DNA from: Megasphaera coli
GTDB lineage: Bacteria > Bacillota > Negativicutes > Veillonellales > Megasphaeraceae
NCBI RefSeq assembly: GCF_900095855.1
Contig: NZ_FMIY01000002.1
Coordinates: 797,322 to 861,321 of the forward strand
DNA: 64,000 nucleotides
Direction of reading: 5' to 3'
Made by a program: the position numbers and the translations under genes. Under the pieces are notes generated by a model that was not told where the DNA came from, did no database searches, and was given only the letters and a program-made list of their open reading frames with translations. Below are positions 10,975-43,275 of the stretch, in pieces. Every line of letters starts with the position of its first letter. Within the stretch, counting starts at the first letter, position 1.

Positions 10975-13882
10975 TTACTAAACTGCCTTTGCGGCAGCTA
11001 ACACTCGCAGCTTTGATGATTTTAATGACAGCGATTTCTAAGCTGCCTTTGCGGCAGCTAACGTTTTGACGGCACAAAAGCTGCAATAGTTGCATTTCTA
11101 AGCTGCCTTTGCGGCAGCTAACCCGATGCTCGGCATTGGTAGTGCTGGGCTTATTTTCTAAGCTGCCTTTGCGGCAGCTAACGCTTTCTTCCCGTTCGTG
11201 TATTCTACCATGCATTTCTAAGCTGCCTTTGCGGCAGCTAACATGAGGCCGTCCGCCGTATCATACTCTTTGCCTTTCTAAGCTGCCTTTGCGGCAGCTA
11301 ACTAAAGGGGAACATAATAGTGTTTCCCCGGAAATTTCTAAGCTGCCTTTGCGGCAGCTAACTGACACAACGTTTTTACTCAAGCATTTTGAGATTTCTA
11401 AGCTGCCTTTGCGGCAGCTAACTTCTTTGCGACTGATACTTGTGCTATGAGTTTTTTCTAAGCTGCCTTTGCGGCAGCTAACCTGTCTAAAAATGACCAC
11501 ATCATATCGCGGCATTTCTAAGCTGCCTTTGCGGCAGCTAACCAAGATTATATCACGGTGGATGCGAGCTAGAATTTCTAAGCTGCCTTTGCGGCAGCTA
11601 ACTTTCTGCTTGTGCTTTGTTGCTCCAGTGTTTATTTCTAAGCTGCCTTTGCGGCAGCTAACTCATCAATATGCGTAATCGGACTTACAAAACCTTTCTA
11701 AGCTGCCTTTGCGGCAGCTAACCAGTTTATGCAGCTCCTCTGATTCGGCGTTAATTTCTAAGCTGCCTTTGCGGCAGCTAACGATCACGACGCAGGCTGT
11801 CATGACATCTACGTTTTCTAAGCTGCCTTTGCGGCAGCTAACTTTTGAGCGCGCGGCGTGTTACCGATAAACGATTTCTAAGCTGCCTTTGCGGCAGCTA
11901 ACGTAAATGTGCGGACTGACACCAAAAGATTTTGTTTCTAAGCTGCCTTTGCGGCAGCTAACTCGGATGAGTAGCGCGAATGGCTTATCTGAGCTTTCTA
12001 AGCTGCCTTTGCGGCAGCTAACATCCCGTGCGGTCGTTGTATTGGTTGCCGATTTTTCTAAGCTGCCTTTGCGGCAGCTAACGGACGACGCTCGAGCTCT
12101 GCCGTAACCATTATTTTCTAAGCTGCCTTTGCGGCAGCTAACAGCTGCGGGCGTCTATACGGATGGACGTCAAATTTCTAAGCTGCCTTTGCGGCAGCTA
12201 ACAACGCCTCTGCCGTCCGGACGGACTCCCAAATTTCTAAGCTGCCTTTGCGGCAGCTAACATATCGCAGCTGCAGTATGTAAAGTAGGTGATTTTCTAA
12301 GCTGCCTTTGCGGCAGCTAACGAGTAGACCTGCTGCCTTACTCGTCTCCGTCATTTCTAAGCTGCCTTTGCGGCAGCTAACGACCACCAGAAACGCGAGC
12401 CGTAGCACCTAATTTTCTAAGCTGCCTTTGCGGCAGCTAACACGGCACTGACAGAGTGGCAAGCGCAGCAAGATTTCTAAGCTGCCTTTGCGGCAGCTAA
12501 CACGCAAAAAGCGCGTAAAACCGTTAGGACTATTTTCTAAGCTGCCTTTGCGGCAGCTAACACAGTCCACAGATTATTTAATTCCGCAGGTAAATTTCTA
12601 AGCTGCCTTTGCGGCAGCTAACATCTCCGGGCATGAGTCGCTGTGGCCGCTGCATTTCTAAGCTGCCTTTGCGGCAGCTAACCCGGGCAATTACGCCCGG
12701 CTGATTGATAAGTATTTCTAAGCTGCCTTTGCGGCAGCTAACACGACCGTTGACGATAGCATGGTGGCGCGTATTTTCTAAGCTGCCTTTGCGGCAGCTA
12801 ACAGTTTGTTTCCCATCCCCATCACCTCCTTTCGTTTCTAAGCTGCCTTTGCGGCAGCTAACTCTGACAAAAACCAAGGCGGCGTCAGCATGGATTTCTA
12901 AGCTGCCTTTGCGGCAGCTAACGTCAAGCGGAAACAGTAACGCGATGGACGTAATTTCTAAGCTGCCTTTGCGGCAGCTAACCAGGTTACAGTTATTGAG
13001 CCGCAAGCTCAGATTTTCTAAGCTGCCTTTGCGGCAGCTAACGTTGGTTAGGCAGTATTTTAGGTGGTGCAGTTTTTCTAAGCTGCCTTTGCGGCAGCTA
13101 ACATACAATAGCAAAGGCCTGTATTTCCGCATTCTTTCTAAGCTGCCTTTGCGGCAGCTAACATCCTGCGCGGCGATCCCGTGCAGCAGAGCCATTTCTA
13201 AGCTGCCTTTGCGGCAGCTAACTTATGCCTGGCATAATGCCAGTACATTGCTTGTTTCTAAGCTGCCTTTGCGGCAGCTAACATAAAAAGGACGCCCCGA
13301 TTCAGGGCCCCCTTTTTCTAAGCTGCCTTTGCGGCAGCTAACTTCCTCAATTTCTTTTAGCATGAAAGCCCGAATTTCTAAGCTGCCTTTGCGGCAGCTA
13401 ACCAATAAAATTAACGGTTGCCGTCAGTTCTTTATTTCTAAGCTGCCTTTGCGGCAGCTAACGGTTCGTCAGGAAAACTTCTGTCACGCTACTTTTTCTA
13501 AGCTGCCTTTGCGGCAGCTAACAATTGAACTGTTTGAAGGGCGTATTTTTTACATTTCTAAGCTGCCTTTGCGGCAGCTAACGTGAAGGTGGAGAGTTCG
13601 TATCTAAATCAAATTTTCTAAGCTGCCTTTGCGGCAGCTAACCCGACACGGTGACCATCTCTTATGCCCAGATTTTTCTAAGCTGCCTTTGCGGCAGCTA
13701 ACACGTCACGCGCGGCATGACGGAAAACGCCCTGTTTCTAAGCTGCCTTTGCGGCAGCTAACGGTGGCAATAGTGATGGATGCACGTTTACATTTTTCTA
13801 AGCTGCCTTTGCGGCAGCTAACGCCCGCCGCGCCTCGGATATAGTCACCGGTTATTTCTAAGCTGCCTTTGCGGCAGCTAAC
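10975..13882 (-). CRISPR. Type I-F CRISPR array, 49 repeats and 48 spacers
   Basis: The 28-base repeat, read on the minus strand, is GTTAGCTGCCGCAAAG followed by GCAGCTTAGAAA. AGCTGCC and GGCAGCT form a 7-bp hairpin around GCAAA, as Cas6f needs. The array has 49 copies at a 60-base period. Spacers are 32 bases except one of 31 (12203-12233) and one of 33 (12562-12594). All repeats are identical except the one at 10975-11002, which has two changes; this marks the old, leader-distal end. Transcription therefore runs leftward from the leader beside cas6f, co-directional with the cas operon. Confidence 0.98.
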
Positions 13883-37217: not shown

Positions 37218-37405
37218 AAAAAAGAAGCCCCACCATGCCGTCTATAACCGAGTTTTGAGCCTGCCTGAGCAGGTGGGTGTCCTCCTATTGGGAGTCAACA
37301 GTCCAGTGAAGGCATTGTTTAACCGCAATAGAGCCCGAACTCCCGATGTATAAGTGTTGGTTCAAAACATCGAGTACCTTTACGCACACAGTAGGGTTTT
37401 CTCTT
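37218..37405 (-). ncRNA. ssrS: 6S RNA (RNA polymerase inhibitor)
   Basis: The only gene-free stretch between ftsK and serS encodes a roughly 188-base RNA on the minus strand. Its ends pair: CCCTACTGTG near the 5' end with CATGGTGGGG near the 3' end, ten pairs including G-U. Between them lie a long imperfect hairpin and an open centre, the shape that mimics an open promoter. A perfect sigma-A promoter precedes it and a T run closes it. Sequence pieces such as GGACACCCACCTGCT recall Firmicute 6S RNAs. An Infernal scan against RF00013 would settle it. Confidence 0.8.
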
Positions 37406-37501: not shown

Positions 37502-38776
37502 TTATACGGATTTAATGACATCGCATTTCATATACGGACGGAGCACTTCCGGTACTGCGACGGAGCCGTCCGCCTGCTGGCAGTTTTCCAGAATGGCCGC
37601 GACCGTGCGGCCTACGGCAAGACCGGAGCCGTTCAGCGTATGGACGTATTCGGGCTTCGACTTGGCATCGCGGCGAAAACGAATATTCGCACGCCGTGCC
37701 TGGAAATCTTCCGTATTGGAGCACGACGAGATTTCGCGATACTTGCCCTGCGCCGGGAACCATACTTCCACGTCGAAGGTCTTTGCTGCGGAAAAACCGA
37801 TATCGCCCGTGCAAAGGCAGACGACATGATACGGCAGCTTGAGTTCCTGCAGAATAGCCTCGGCGTTTTGCGTCAACTTGTCCAGTTCGTCATAACTCGT
37901 TTCGGGGGTAACGTATTTTACCATTTCCACTTTGTGGAACTGGTGCTGCCGAATAAGGCCGCGCGTATCTCTGCCGGCGGATCCCGCTTCGGCACGGAAA
38001 CACGGCGTAAGGGCCGTCAAGTAAACGGGCAGTTTCGCACCGTCAATGATTTCGTTGCGATAGTAATTCGTGAGCGGTACTTCCGACGTCGGAATCATGA
38101 ACATTTCCTGTCCTTCAATACGGAACATGTCTTCATAAAATTTCGGCAACTGCCCCGTTCCCTGCATTGACTCGCGATTTACGATATACGGCGGAATCAC
38201 CTCCGTATAGCCATCCACTTCCGTATGGCGGTCGAGCATGTAATTATAAACGGCCCGTTCCAAATGAGCGCCGGCACCTAAATAGAAATAAAAGCGCGAA
38301 CCCGCCACTTTACCGGCCCGTTCGGCGTCAAGGATGCCGAGAGCTTCACCGATTTCCCAATGGTCTTTGGGCTGAAAATCAAAGTGCGGCAATTCACCCC
38401 ACTTACGCACTTCCGGATTGTCGCTGTCGTCTTTGCCGACGGGAACGGACGGATGGCACATATTGGGCAGCATGAGCCGGATGGCGACCATCTTGTTTTC
38501 CGTGTCCCTCACTTTTTCATCAAGTTCCGCAATTTCATCGCCCAATTTTTTCATGTCCGCAATTTTTTCATCTGCATTTTCTTTGTTTCGTTTGAGCACG
38601 CTGATTTCTTTTGTCACTTCGTTACGGCGGCTTTTCATGGCTTCAACGCGGCCTAACAAATCGCGCCGTTTTGCATCAAGTTCAATAAAAGTATCCACGT
38701 CGACGACAGTGTTGCGTCGTTTTAAATTCTCTTTTACAGCCTCTGTATTTTCACGAATAAATTTTGCATCCAACAT
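37502..38776 (-). CDS. serS: Seryl-tRNA synthetase
   Basis: The 424-residue class II synthetase starts [20 protein letters not shown], with the long antiparallel coiled coil that grips the tRNA-Ser arm. Class II motifs are seen in [39 protein letters not shown] and [17 protein letters not shown]. The ATG at 38776 has GAGGAGAT upstream. It is the last gene of the T-box-led serine operon, so charging capacity and serine synthesis are regulated together. Confidence 0.98.
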
Positions 38777-38804
38777 ATTAATATCTCCTCTCATTGTACG
38801 CTGA

Positions 38805-39449
38805 TTATAAGCCTTTTTGGTCTGTCGTGCTGAATAAATATCCCATGTGAAGTGTTGAGTTCAGCAGGACCAGGCGCCACTTGCCGTCCTGTTCCTCCAG
38901 GACGTTAATGCACGTATTATCCTGCTTTACTTGCCAGAATTTGTCGATTCCCATACCGAGAAGATCACAAATAATAACCTTGTTTACCGCATCGTGAGCG
39001 GCAACGAGCACGGTTTTGCCGGAAAAGCGGGCGGCGTAGTCGTCAAAGGCCGGGCGCACTCGTTTTCTCACGTCTTCCAGCGATTCGCCGCCGGCACCGG
39101 GCATTTTCACCGTATGAGGGGCTTTGTGCCAAGCCTTAAACTCGTCGGCATACAGGCTTTCAATTTCTTCCGTAAGGCGGCCGCCCCAATCACCGTGATG
39201 GATTTCCGTCAATCGTTCGTCCTTTTCAACGGAAAGATTATGCAAATCGGCACAGAGTTTGGCCGTTATAAAAGCACGTTGCAAAGGGCTCGACAGGCAG
39301 ACGTCGAAAGGAATGTCCTTGAGGCTCCGAGCCAGCTTTTCTCCCTGCTCCCGGCCATAAGCGCTGAGCGGGGTGTCTTCCTGTCCCTGATAGCGACCCG
39401 TAACGTTCCACTCCGTTTGGCCGTGGCGAACTAAAATAATACGTACCAT
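38805..39449 (-). CDS. Histidine-phosphatase-family protein, probable phosphoserine phosphatase
   Basis: The 214-residue protein belongs to the phosphoglycerate-mutase-like superfamily. It has the phospho-acceptor motif [24 protein letters not shown], the acidic EIHHGDWGG segment and the second catalytic His in VAAHDAVNK. By itself that permits cofactor-dependent mutase, alpha-ribazole phosphatase or phosphoserine phosphatase. Its place between serA and serS, 11 bases after serA and behind a serine T-box, favours a metal-independent phosphoserine phosphatase like PspA of Hydrogenobacter. Family assignment is firm, substrate inferred. Confidence 0.8.
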
Positions 39450-39460
39450 CGGTCTCCTCC

Positions 39461-41068
39461 TTATTGGTGCGGCTCACAATGAATGAGTTTCATATCCAAA
39501 ATGCCGTCGATTGCCTTGAGCTTCAACATGACATTGCTTGGAATATCGTCGGCGACGGCAATAGCCATTATATTCGTCCCCTTTTGCGTCATATTCCCGA
39601 CCTGCATGCCCGTAATATTGATCCGCGCTTCGCCAAGGATGGTCGAAATCTGGCCGATCATATTTGGCTGGTCAATATGCGGTGCCAGGATAAGGTAGTT
39701 TTCCGGCGTGAAATCGACGCGGTATCCGTCAATCTGCACGATTTTCGCTTCTGTCCGGTTAAATAAAGTTCCCACGATGCTGTGTTCGCCCTTTTCCGTC
39801 ACAATGCGTACCGTAACGGCGTCAACAAAGGTACCGGGGTCGGCGCTGCGTATTTCTTTGACCGAAATATGCCGCTGCTTGGCCACATCCGGCGCATTTA
39901 CGAAATTGACCGAATCCTGCAGGATCGGATTCAGCGCACCTTTCAAAACGGCCGTCGTCAAAAGCCCGGTCTCCGTTTCGGCAAGCTTCCCCGTGTATTC
40001 GACCGTAATTTCCTTCATAGGCCCCTCAGCCAAGTATACACCGATGATGCCGATACGTTCCATCAGATCGAAGTAGGGCTGAATTGTAAGATAAACGTTC
40101 TTGGCAATAGGTACCATGTTGACGGCCGTCGGCACCGGTTCACCGCGCAGTCCGGCCATAATTCCTTCGGCCACATCTACGGACACGCCTTCCTGAGCCT
40201 CTACGGTCGATGCACCGATGTGCGGTGTAATGACGACGTTTTCCATGCCCTTGAAGGGATTGATATCCGCCGTAAGCGGTTCTTCCGGGAAAACGTCTAC
40301 GGCTGCGCCGGCAACGTGACCGCTTTTGAGGGCGGCGGCCAGGGCATGTATGTCGAGGACGGCACCGCGCGATACGTTAATTACGCGCACACCCTTTTTC
40401 ATTTTCGCTATTTCTTCAGCGCCGATCATGCCGCGCGTCTCCTTTGTCAGCGGCGTATGGAGCGTAATATAATCCGCTTCGCGCAAGAGCGTATCCAAAT
40501 CGACGAGCTCGCAGCCCAGCTGCTTGCCCCGTTCTTCCGGTATGTACGGGTCATAGCCGATAGTCTTCATTTCCATGGCCTGCATGCGTTTGGCAATACG
40601 CGAGCCGATACGACCGACACCGATAATCCCGACGGTCTTGTCCTTGAGCTGAATACCCGTAAACTTTTCCCGGTTCCACTCGCCGGCCATGAGCGAATCG
40701 TGAGCCTGCGGAATATGGCGCGTAACGGCCAAAATCATGGCGCACGTGTGTTCCGTCGCGGCAATCGTGTTGGATGTCGGCGCGTTGACGACAATAATAC
40801 CGCGAGCCGTAGCGGCTTTGAGGTCGATACTGTCGATACCGACACCGGCACGGCCGATGATTTTAAGCTTCCCCGCCGCTTCAATGACCTCCGCTGTAAC
40901 GTGCGTCATAGACCGCGTAATGAGGCCGTCATACTCGCCGATGCACGTAATGAGGTCTTTTTCGTCGAGGTTTGTTTTTATATCAACATGATATCCGTTC
41001 CTGCGCAATAACTCGACGCCCTTAGCCGACACGTCGTCGCTTACCAGTATTTTCATCATCTCTTCCAT
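39461..41068 (-). CDS. serA: D-3-phosphoglycerate dehydrogenase
   Basis: SerA oxidises 3-phosphoglycerate to 3-phosphohydroxypyruvate with NAD. The 535-residue long form contains the NAD motif VGIIGVGRIGSRIAKRMQ, the catalytic Arg/Glu/His segments (NVSRGAVLDIHALAAALK, VVITPHIGASTVEAQEG), an ASB domain, and a C-terminal ACT domain (LILAPHIDQPNMIGQISTIL) that usually binds serine. The ATG at 41068 follows GGAGG by nine bases. It lies 21 bases after serC. Confidence 0.97.
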   Translation of the reverse strand: MEEMMKILVSDDVSAKGVELLRRNGYHVDIKTNLDEKDLITCIGEYDGLITRSMTHVTAEVIEAAGKLKIIGRAGVGIDSIDLKAATARGIIVVNAPTSNTIAATEHTCAMILAVTRHIPQAHDSLMAGEWNREKFTGIQLKDKTVGIIGVGRIGSRIAKRMQAMEMKTIGYDPYIPEERGKQLGCELVDLDTLLREADYITLHTPLTKETRGMIGAEEIAKMKKGVRVINVSRGAVLDIHALAAALKSGHVAGAAVDVFPEEPLTADINPFKGMENVVITPHIGASTVEAQEGVSVDVAEGIMAGLRGEPVPTAVNMVPIAKNVYLTIQPYFDLMERIGIIGVYLAEGPMKEITVEYTGKLAETETGLLTTAVLKGALNPILQDSVNFVNAPDVAKQRHISVKEIRSADPGTFVDAVTVRIVTEKGEHSIVGTLFNRTEAKIVQIDGYRVDFTPENYLILAPHIDQPNMIGQISTILGEARINITGMQVGNMTQKGTNIMAIAVADDIPSNVMLKLKAIDGILDMKLIHCEPHQ

Positions 41069-41089: not shown

Positions 41090-42166
41090 TTATGCATGGT
41101 TCTTGCGAAATATCCTCATAAAATCCGCCAATACTTCACAGGCTTCAAGTGTCACCGCGTTGTATACGGACGCCCGACAGCCGCCTAAGGAACGGTGCCC
41201 TTTAAGACCCGTTAAATTTCGTTCCGCCGCTTCATGTACAAACTTCTTTTCCAGTTCCGCCGACGGCAGGTTGAAGGTAATATTCATGATGCTCCGCGAA
41301 TTTTTTGCCGCATGCCCTTTATAAAAACCGTCGCTTTCATCAACGGCTTCATAGATGACGGCCGCTTTTCGGCGGTTGCGCGCTTCCATGGCTGCCAAGC
41401 CGCCCAGAGACTCCAACCAATGAAGGACCTTGTTGACGAAATAAATGCAAAAAACCGGCGGCGTATTGTATGTCGAATCGTGGTCAAAAAAGGTACCGTA
41501 TTTGAGCATAAGCGGCAAGTCTTTCTTTGCTGTCCGCAGCAGTTCTTTTTTCATAATACCGATGACCGCACCGGCAGGACCGACATTTTTCTGAATACCC
41601 GCGTATATAAAAGCAAACTTGCTCACGTCCACAGGCCGTGCCAAAAAGTCGCTGGATGCATCGCAGAAAAGAGGGACGCCGACCGTCGGGTAATCTTGCC
41701 ACTGCGTGCCGTGAATTGTATTGTTCGACGTAATATAGACATAATCCGTATCGGGAAGAACCGTAAAATCGGCAGCCCCGGGAATGTATGTGAAACCGTC
41801 TTTTTCACTTGACGCCACATCATACACTTCTCCGAAAAAGGAAGCCGCTTCCTTGGCTTTCTCCGACCACACGCCCGTATTGATGTAGCCGCCCCTGCGG
41901 CGCAGGAAATTCGCACCGTGCATGAGAAACTGCAAACTGCCGCCGCCCTGCATAAAGGCGACGACGTAGTCGTCGGGAACGGCGAGCAGTTTGCGCAAGA
42001 GCGAAACGGTCTCATCCTGCATTCGCTGATACGCGTCGCTGCGATGACTGATTTCAACGATACTCATGCCGGTCCCGTTAAAATTCAAAAACTCGTGCTG
42101 TACTTCTTCCAACACGTTCAGCGGCATGGCCGACGGACCGGCATTAAAGTTATAGACTCTTTCCAC
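41090..42166 (-). CDS. serC: Phosphoserine aminotransferase
   Basis: SerC converts 3-phosphohydroxypyruvate to phosphoserine with glutamate and PLP. The 358 residues start with RVYNFNAGPSAMPLNVLEEV after the initiator and contain VAFMQGGGSLQF, DASSDFLARPVDVSKFAFI and YAGIQKNVGPAGA with the PLP lysine. The start is a GTG seven bases after GAGGAGG. It is the first gene behind the serine T-box. Confidence 0.97.
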   Translation of the reverse strand: MERVYNFNAGPSAMPLNVLEEVQHEFLNFNGTGMSIVEISHRSDAYQRMQDETVSLLRKLLAVPDDYVVAFMQGGGSLQFLMHGANFLRRRGGYINTGVWSEKAKEAASFFGEVYDVASSEKDGFTYIPGAADFTVLPDTDYVYITSNNTIHGTQWQDYPTVGVPLFCDASSDFLARPVDVSKFAFIYAGIQKNVGPAGAVIGIMKKELLRTAKKDLPLMLKYGTFFDHDSTYNTPPVFCIYFVNKVLHWLESLGGLAAMEARNRRKAAVIYEAVDESDGFYKGHAAKNSRSIMNITFNLPSAELEKKFVHEAAERNLTGLKGHRSLGGCRASVYNAVTLEACEVLADFMRIFRKNHA

Positions 42167-42189
42167 CGTCTTTCCTCCTCACTTCCCGG

Positions 42190-42238
42190 AAAAAATAAAT
42201 ACGGAGAAGCTGTCCACTTGGGACGAGCCTCTCCGTAT
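42190..42238 (-). terminator. Second T-box terminator
   Basis: ATACGGAGAGGCT and AGCTTCTCCGTAT form a long stem around a stretch with GTCC/GGAC pairing, followed by TTATTTTTT. It ends about 24 bases before the serC start. Confidence 0.85.
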
Positions 42239-42276
42239 CTCGCGGTACCACCCAATTTGCCGTAATGCGAAAAAAC

Positions 42277-42306
42277 AAAAAAACTCCCGTCCCTCAGGGA
42301 CGAGAG
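42277..42306 (-). terminator. First T-box terminator
   Basis: On the minus strand CTCTCGTCCC-TGA-GGGACGGGAG is followed by seven T. It competes with the antiterminator that includes the T-box at 42315. Confidence 0.88.
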
Positions 42307-42500
42307 CATATTCCCGCGTTGCCACCCAACTTGCCGTACGGCCATCTTTAAGCGCTATATCGGGCGCAGCCCGTCAAATTCGTCATTTGCCGCTCCGGAG
42401 CGGAACGCCTCACAGTCCTGTCGCCTCGCACCGGCCGGCAACTCTCTGAAAAAGACTCCGATTTGCTTCTCCATCACTGCGTTTCCTTATTATTGTTCAT

Positions 42501-42529
42501 AGTATATGCATTTTACCGTTCCCTGTCAA
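42501..42529 (-). promoter_or_regulatory. Promoter of the serine operon
   Basis: A perfect TTGACA (42524-42529) and TATACT (42501-42506) on the minus strand are 17 bases apart, just upstream of the T-box leader. Confidence 0.85.
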
Positions 42530-42593: not shown

Positions 42594-42622
42594 TGGACTT
42601 TTTAAGTATTATTTGTTATACT
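42594..42622 (+). promoter_or_regulatory. Promoter of the superoxide dismutase gene
   Basis: TGGACT (42594-42599) and TATACT (42617-42622) are 17 bases apart. The Fur-like box begins eight bases downstream, over the expected start of transcription. Confidence 0.6.
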
Positions 42623-42629
42623 TGTCATA

Positions 42630-42644
42630 TGATAATCATTATCG
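42630..42644 (+). promoter_or_regulatory. Fur/PerR-like operator
   Basis: TGATAATCATTATCG matches the 7-1-7 Fur consensus TGATAAT-N-ATTATCA at 14 of 15 positions. PerR boxes (TTATAAT-N-ATTATAA) are close relatives, so iron- or peroxide-responsive repression are both possible. Confidence 0.75.
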
Positions 42645-42669
42645 ACTTTTTATAAGGAGGTTTTTTATT

Positions 42670-43275
42670 ATGGCATACACATTACCCGATTTGCCGTACG
42701 CATATGCGGCGTTGGAACCGTATATCGACGAGGAAACAATGCATTACCATCACGACAAACACCACAACACGTACGTAACGAATTTGAACGGCGCTGTTGA
42801 AAAGCACCCGGAGCTTTTTGCAAAGACGGCTGAAGAACTGGTCGCCGATCTGAACGCCGTTCCTGAAGATATTCGTACAGCCGTTCGCAATAACGGCGGC
42901 GGACATGCAAACCACACGTTCTTCTGGAATATTATGAGTCCTGACGGCGGCAAGCTTTGCGGCTCCGTGGAAGACGCTATCAATACGGCTTTCGGCAGCA
43001 CGGCGGAATTCCAAAAACTCTTTACCCAAGCCGCCACAAGTCGTTTCGGCTCCGGTTGGGCCTGGCTTGTCGTAAACAAGGGTAAGCTCGAGGTCATGTC
43101 CACGGCCAATCAGGATTCACCTCTCAGCGAAGGCAAGACGCCGATTCTCGGTCTCGACGTGTGGGAACATGCATACTATTTAAAATATAAGAATGCCCGT
43201 GCGGCCTACATTGATGCTTTCTGGAATGTAGTCAACTGGAAACAGGTAAACGAACACTTTGAAAAAGCAAAATAA
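42670..43275 (+). CDS. sodA: Superoxide dismutase (Mn/Fe)
   Basis: The 201 residues start [20 protein letters not shown] and carry the four metal ligands: His in [12 protein letters not shown], His in [12 protein letters not shown], and Asp and His in [16 protein letters not shown]. It converts superoxide to peroxide and oxygen in the cytosol. The ATG follows ATAAGGAGG by nine bases. Metal preference cannot be assigned safely. Confidence 0.97.

Follow-up and report, generated by a model that had tools for sequence, protein, structure and literature searches.

A predicted serine T-box leader with one Stem I and two antiterminator/terminator units ahead of serC in Megasphaera coli

Duplicated terminator-antiterminator elements reportedly define a structural class of T-box leaders set out by Vitreschak et al. 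in 2008 (RNA). Partially tandem T-boxes have at least two antiterminator/terminator pairs behind a single Stem I, as does the leader analysed here; the literature recognises them and lists their mode of action as unknown (PMC7583486). Full tandem T-boxes, such as those in trp, ilv/leu and thrS leaders, also place two T-box terminators in series ahead of amino-acid genes, but each of their units has its own Stem I, and their function is said to require two uncharged tRNAs (PMC12452182), whereas in the serine leader one Stem I precedes both units.

The serA T-box of Paenibacillus polymyxa, for which transcription antitermination was shown experimentally (PMC8002221), is likewise serine-specific and located on serine synthesis genes. 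However, its specifier is AGC and it has one terminator, whereas the specifier of the present leader is UCC and its terminators are two. The tandem riboswitches of PMC9481103 are similar to the present leader in that one ligand is checked at several points of the same transcript, but the five architectures in figure 1 of that paper combine two aptamers with a single platform, line up complete riboswitches or use an allosteric ribozyme, and one aptamer with two platforms, as in the serine leader, is not among them. A layout of one Stem I and two units is already known for T-boxes, and the comparative set of serine leaders from Negativicutes described below adds to it. In the literature searched, no description was found of Negativicutes serC or serA leaders, of inequality between the units or of natural single-unit derivatives.

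Anatomy of the serC leader

The DNA analysed (the window) is a stretch of 64,000 nucleotides from Megasphaera coli, and the serC leader lies on its minus strand, running from the promoter to the GTG start codon of serC at 42166, with transcription expected to start near 42494 (Table 1). The Rfam T-box model RF00230 aligned end to end (model positions 1-219) to 42486-42293 (72.2 bits, E 1.2e-15), the alignment stopping at the end of unit 1, and the second core was matched separately, by the core portion of the model only (positions 183-216), at 42258-42219 (25.4 bits, E 0.0013). As the curated gathering cut-off is 93 bits, a default Rfam scan misses both matches, and annotation of T-boxes as single copies can in addition hide leaders with several units. 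Ten full T-boxes were found in this genome, and an extra core was found in the serine leader only.

A first-pass annotation, made by a model from the sequence without database searches, had proposed one Stem I with a TCC specifier followed by two T-box cores and two terminators, and both the alignment and the predicted folds agree with it. In the RF00230 alignment, Stem I has its specifier loop, its AG bulge and its distal loop, and the distance from UCC to the 3' end of Stem I is the same as that of UUC, UAC and UGG in multi-unit leaders with Phe, Tyr and Trp specifiers. The UCC codon also fits the regulated pathway (a serC-serA-serS operon) and a cognate tRNA, as the tRNA-Ser anticodons of the genome are GGA, CGA, UGA and GCU; all four tRNA-Ser genes have a discriminator G and CCA at the end.

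Behind the single full Stem I, two T-box antiterminator/terminator units are predicted, each with a UGGN bulge complementary to the NCCA end of the tRNA. Core 1 is GGGTGGCAACGCGGGA (42327-42312), and its UGGC can pair at all four positions with the GCCA end of tRNA-Ser; core 2 is GGGTGGTACCGCGAG (42253-42239), and its UGGU would pair with GCCA via a U-G wobble at the discriminator G73. In both units CUCGUCCC is the strand shared by the antiterminator and the intrinsic terminator, the two folds being mutually exclusive. Folding gave about -17 kcal/mol for terminator T1 and -29 kcal/mol for the longer T2, compared with about -9 kcal/mol for each antiterminator without tRNA, T2 being far more stable than antiterminator 2. 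The automatic terminator scan returned T1 only, probably because a bulge interrupts the helix of T2 and an A interrupts its tail; T2, which is followed by the tail TTTATTTTTT to 42190, was found by folding.

The repeat GGCAA(G/A)TTGGGTGG that had been noted ahead of each terminator is exact in both places, and no third copy occurs in the window, even when two mismatches are allowed. A second Stem I between the units, which the first-pass annotation had named as evidence that would count against its reading, was looked for and is absent in the window and in 38 relatives, and in the window the 16 nt between the end of the T1 T-tract (42270) and core 2 (42253) leave no room for one. The leader, with its second, core-only RF00230 match and this 16-nt gap, belongs with the partially tandem T-boxes, which have at least two units behind one Stem I, and not with the full tandem T-boxes, which have a Stem I for each unit.

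Table 1. Predicted features of the serine leader and its operon (coordinates are those of the window)
Feature	Coordinates	Strand	Basis
Sigma-70-like promoter TTGACA-17-TATACT	42501..42529	-	11/12 consensus positions; 0.7 such sites expected per shuffled region
T-box Stem I with AG bulge (AGAGAG) and distal loop (GGUG)	42392..42480	-	RF00230 alignment; boundaries approximate
Specifier UCC (Ser), reader tRNA-Ser(GGA)	42402..42404	-	RF00230 alignment position; UUCC invariant in 34 aligned Ser leaders; cognate tRNA encoded
Stem III hairpin ahead of unit 1, flanks AGAUG and AA (purine-string motif RRRxG-stem III-AA)	42333..42342	-	Sequence; motif definition PMC7583486
Unit 1 antiterminator, core GGGUGG-CAAC-GCGGGA with UCUCGUCCC	42297..42327	-	RF00230 alignment, folding, leader alignment
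Unit 1 terminator hairpin T1	42283..42307	-	Folding; automatic terminator scan; T-tract T7GT6 at 42283-42270
Second copy of repeat GGCAA(A/G)TTGGGTGG	42248..42261	-	Exact match; first copy at 42335-42322
Unit 2 antiterminator, core GGGUGG-UACC-GCGAG with CUCGUCCC	42220..42253	-	RF00230 alignment, folding, leader alignment
Unit 2 terminator hairpin T2	about 42197..42240	-	Folding, -29 kcal/mol; T-rich tail 42199-42190
serC, phosphoserine transaminase, GTG start	41090..42166	-	NCBIfam TIGR01364 and NF003764 over cut-off
serA, phosphoglycerate dehydrogenase	39461..41068	-	TIGR01327 over cut-off
Histidine-phosphatase family protein	38805..39449	-	Best match NF045917 (PspA), 183 bits against a cut-off of 350
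serS, seryl-tRNA synthetase	37502..38794	-	TIGR00414 over cut-off

Spread, conservation and loss of the units

A pattern search for two cores 48-78 nt apart found the spaced pair in 112 of 380 genomes of the class and in 11 of 398 genomes of a phylum sample, 7 of the 11 lying outside the class, and these counts are lower bounds as the strict pattern is blind to wider spacings. The reversed pattern, used as the control in the class, gave 0 matches. The two-unit layout is not exclusive to Negativicutes. Comparison with the serC leaders of other Negativicutes, which the first-pass annotation had suggested, returned an identical two-unit layout ahead of serC or serA, and 38 two-unit serine leaders were gathered from many families of the class, located upstream of serC, serA or a class-V aminotransferase gene. 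In these, the distance from the specifier region to core 1 is 78-82 nt and that from core to core is 69-95 nt.

Judged from this distribution, the layout is old and occurs widely among Negativicutes. The RF00230 matches, the absence of reversed-pattern matches and the uniqueness of the repeat in the window rule out chance or an artefact of repeats, and the occurrence of the identical layout in many independent genomes rules out an assembly artefact. The suggestion that unit 2 is a partial duplication fits the start of the copy, which lies within the 3' half of Stem III, but the event was not recent, as conservation of two-unit leaders across families rules out a recent local duplication. Derivation from a full tandem T-box that lost its second Stem I, a rival account of origin and not of function, draws on the common occurrence of full tandem T-boxes in Bacillota (PMC12452182); it is nonetheless very unlikely, because no Stem I sequence lies between the cores in the 38 serine leaders or in other multi-unit leaders, the spacing is at most 95 nt, and the repeat begins within Stem III.

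Multi-unit leaders with other specifiers, assigned by eye from position, were found ahead of genes for a sodium-solute symporter and DAHP synthase (Phe), a TrpX-like binding protein (Tyr) and trpD (Trp). Three units stand behind one Stem I upstream of a DAHP synthase gene (leaders L098/L099, Phe specifier) and of an amino-acid binding protein gene (L174). The Negativicutes Phe/Tyr multi-unit T-boxes L070, L185, L131, L142 and L178 have a first terminator of differing design, in which the T-box sequence itself seems to pair with an anti-T-box further downstream (e.g. GGGTGGTACC ... GGGTGCCACCC-T7). Helix A2 would lie nested within this pairing and the 3' antiterminator strand seems not to be used, a design that would hide UGGN directly.

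In an alignment of 35 leaders, most of them picked by a pattern that demands intact cores and inflates core conservation though not terminator covariation, the share of paired cells is 96.5% for antiterminator 1 and 99.6% for antiterminator 2, and GGGUGG and ACC of core 2 are invariant. Both alternative foldings of each unit are retained, all 35 leaders folding a hairpin for each unit, with a T-rich tail behind each in nearly all. T2 has 8 pairs changed on both sides, a number that 6 of 500 shuffles also attain. None of the 500 shuffles matched T2 in cells paired, double changes, pair types or covariation score, which are four of the five measures used. The covariation signal of T1 is weak, partly owing to alignment gaps in its 3' arm. 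In the aligned serine leaders, the stretch from the T1 T-tract to core 2 showed neither conservation nor a Stem I. The pairing of antiterminator 2 and the compensatory changes in T2 indicate that unit 2 is under selection, and comparison of the leaders points to selection on both units.

The two units are not equal. Rejection of charged tRNA by T-boxes involves the purine string (RRRxG-stem III-AA) and the terminal G-U pair of helix A2 (PMC7583486). Stem III with the purine string precedes unit 1 in 25 of the 38 serine leaders and unit 2 in none, while the G-U sensor pair is present in all 38 first units and 24 second units (missing in 14), unit 2 of the window being one that keeps it. By this comparison unit 2 is a simplified, stripped-down copy of unit 1, and its lack of parts that reject charged tRNA, like the retention of either unit alone in sister species, had been missed by the first-pass annotation. 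A proposed core rule, CAAC in unit 1 and NACC in unit 2, was dropped, as the search pattern forced ACC in core 2; loci found with the covariance model include leaders with CAAC in both cores.

Within the GTDB genus of the window, the leader has two units in six species and one in eight. In another family, genomes G037 and G039 carry unit 1 only and their sisters G038 and G040, which share their genus, carry both, while G041 carries only a platform of the unit 2 type, joined directly to stem III, with both units present in its sister G042, these two belonging to a different genus. Judged by this retention in nature, either unit can work alone behind a similar Stem I. Single-unit leaders are scattered among two-unit ones on a serC tree of 50 leaders, whose starred branches force unit number to have switched between one and two at least 7 times; parsimony puts the number of switches at 11. 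Unit-number labels on this tree are no more clustered than chance would give (53 of 500 shuffles scored as low), and the direction of change is therefore argued from related T2 sequences and apparent unit 2 leftovers and not from the tree alone. The single-unit serC leaders L001/L055 (M. micronuciformis) and L056-L058 have T2-like hairpins without a T-box core behind T1, suggesting a trace of unit 2 loss.

These features bear on a simpler reading, in which T2 is a plain backstop that cuts leak by a roughly fixed factor with no control by tRNA and core 2 is a relic of duplication. The missing purine string, the frequent lack of the G-U pair, the high stability of T2 and the apparent ease with which unit 2 is lost, given the scattered single-unit leaders, would all fit. 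We consider this unlikely, as core 2 and its partner strand are near-perfect in the 35 leaders, even if inflated by a sample partly selected for intact core 2, and a plain terminator needs neither; G041, moreover, has the unit-2-type platform as the sole one behind its Stem I. The Negativicutes serC leaders form a natural test set, with sisters that have both units, unit 1 only or unit 2 only behind a near-identical Stem I. With this set, and with the parts missing from unit 2 clearly listed, it is directly testable how both terminators are opened by one tRNA and what the second terminator adds.

Proposed control by two terminators in series

On balance we favour, with moderate confidence, a transcriptional T-box riboswitch for tRNA-Ser(GGA) in which a single sensing domain followed by two expression platforms in a row would form a serial AND gate, controlling both serine synthesis and serine charging (serC-serA-phosphatase-serS). 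Uncharged tRNA-Ser would place its anticodon on UCC of Stem I and its GCCA end on UGGC of core 1, a pairing with which antiterminator 1 would beat terminator 1, and a polymerase past T1 would then have a second, independent terminator to pass. As the probabilities of two terminators in series multiply, AND logic would lower the basal leak and make the response steeper, and the tighter or staged control proposed in the first-pass annotation is plausible. Unit 1 would be the main charge sensor. Unit 2, without the purine string and, in many relatives, the G-U pair, would be a reduced gate that cuts leak and mainly checks whether Stem I still presents a tRNA end. We infer termination at each of the two sites in the cell, and likewise the AND logic and the hand-off.

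In the hand-off, once the polymerase is past T1, the T1 hairpin (-17 kcal/mol) could displace antiterminator 1 (-9 kcal/mol) and free the tRNA end, which, with the tRNA still bound to Stem I, would dock on antiterminator 2; during this time Stem I would keep its tRNA or bind a new one. We suggest only tentatively that this is the most economical way to open the second gate, and with similar reserve that one aptamer might drive two platforms, or three in some relatives, by passing the 3' end of one tRNA between antiterminators. The three-unit leaders are hard to explain if each tRNA serves a single unit. If the proposal is correct, a T-box would not be a one-off switch, and its ligand would be tested repeatedly during transcription, strictly at first and in a more relaxed manner later.

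The earlier concern that a single uncharged tRNA cannot obviously serve both units is well founded. In single-molecule work on B. subtilis glyQS, the fully bound state lasted >24 s and was called close to irreversible for transcription (PMC6197855), which, set against the ~2 s needed to transcribe unit 2, argues against a hand-off. The construct in that study was without the terminator strand, which could drive displacement. The U-G73 wobble of unit 2, the excess stability of T2 over antiterminator 2 and the weak covariation signal of T1 also count against the two-gate model.

Binding of tRNA to an isolated antiterminator stem-loop was not seen (PMC5951919), which likewise bears out that concern. 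Although UGGN of core 2 is complementary to tRNA 3' ends, it is on this ground extremely unlikely that unit 2 is opened in trans by a further uncharged tRNA acting independently of Stem I, and a reader of this kind would have no amino acid specificity.

A second tRNA contact would be unnecessary if the decision were taken once and enforced twice. In that case, the tRNA-locked antiterminator 1 would free the 3' arm of T1 (GGGACGGG), the arm would capture CUCGUCCC of unit 2 and T2 would be disabled, and where T1 had formed T2 would form too and stop the leak. The required 8-bp cross pairing is present in the window (-14.4 kcal/mol), and the hand-off would no longer be required. However, such pairing arises from any duplication, and in the 35 serC leaders the T1 arm binds the unit 2 of its own leader (-11.7 kcal/mol) no more strongly than that of other leaders (-11.9 kcal/mol), so that these leaders give no signal of co-evolved cross pairing. 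The pairing also has a mismatch where unit 2 has CGCCCC, and the lower stem of T2 is largely outside the captured strand, such that T2 could still form. Together with the plain backstop, this relay is one of the main alternatives to the hand-off; we regard it as quite improbable.

The serine operon and its surroundings

Downstream of the leader, the gene order on the minus strand is serC-serA-phosphatase-serS. By its place between serA and serS, the histidine-phosphatase family protein is possibly the missing phosphoserine phosphatase. A 6S RNA (37223-37400, minus strand) lies directly 3' of serS, with an FtsK-like gene on its far side. On the other side, a superoxide dismutase-like gene, identified by eye (42613-43275, plus strand), is divergent from the serine leader and <120 bp from its likely start. 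Elsewhere in the window, a CRISPR array at 11035-13882 has 48 repeats matching RF01317 at ~60-nt spacing, with equal scores, indicating that the repeats are hardly degenerate.
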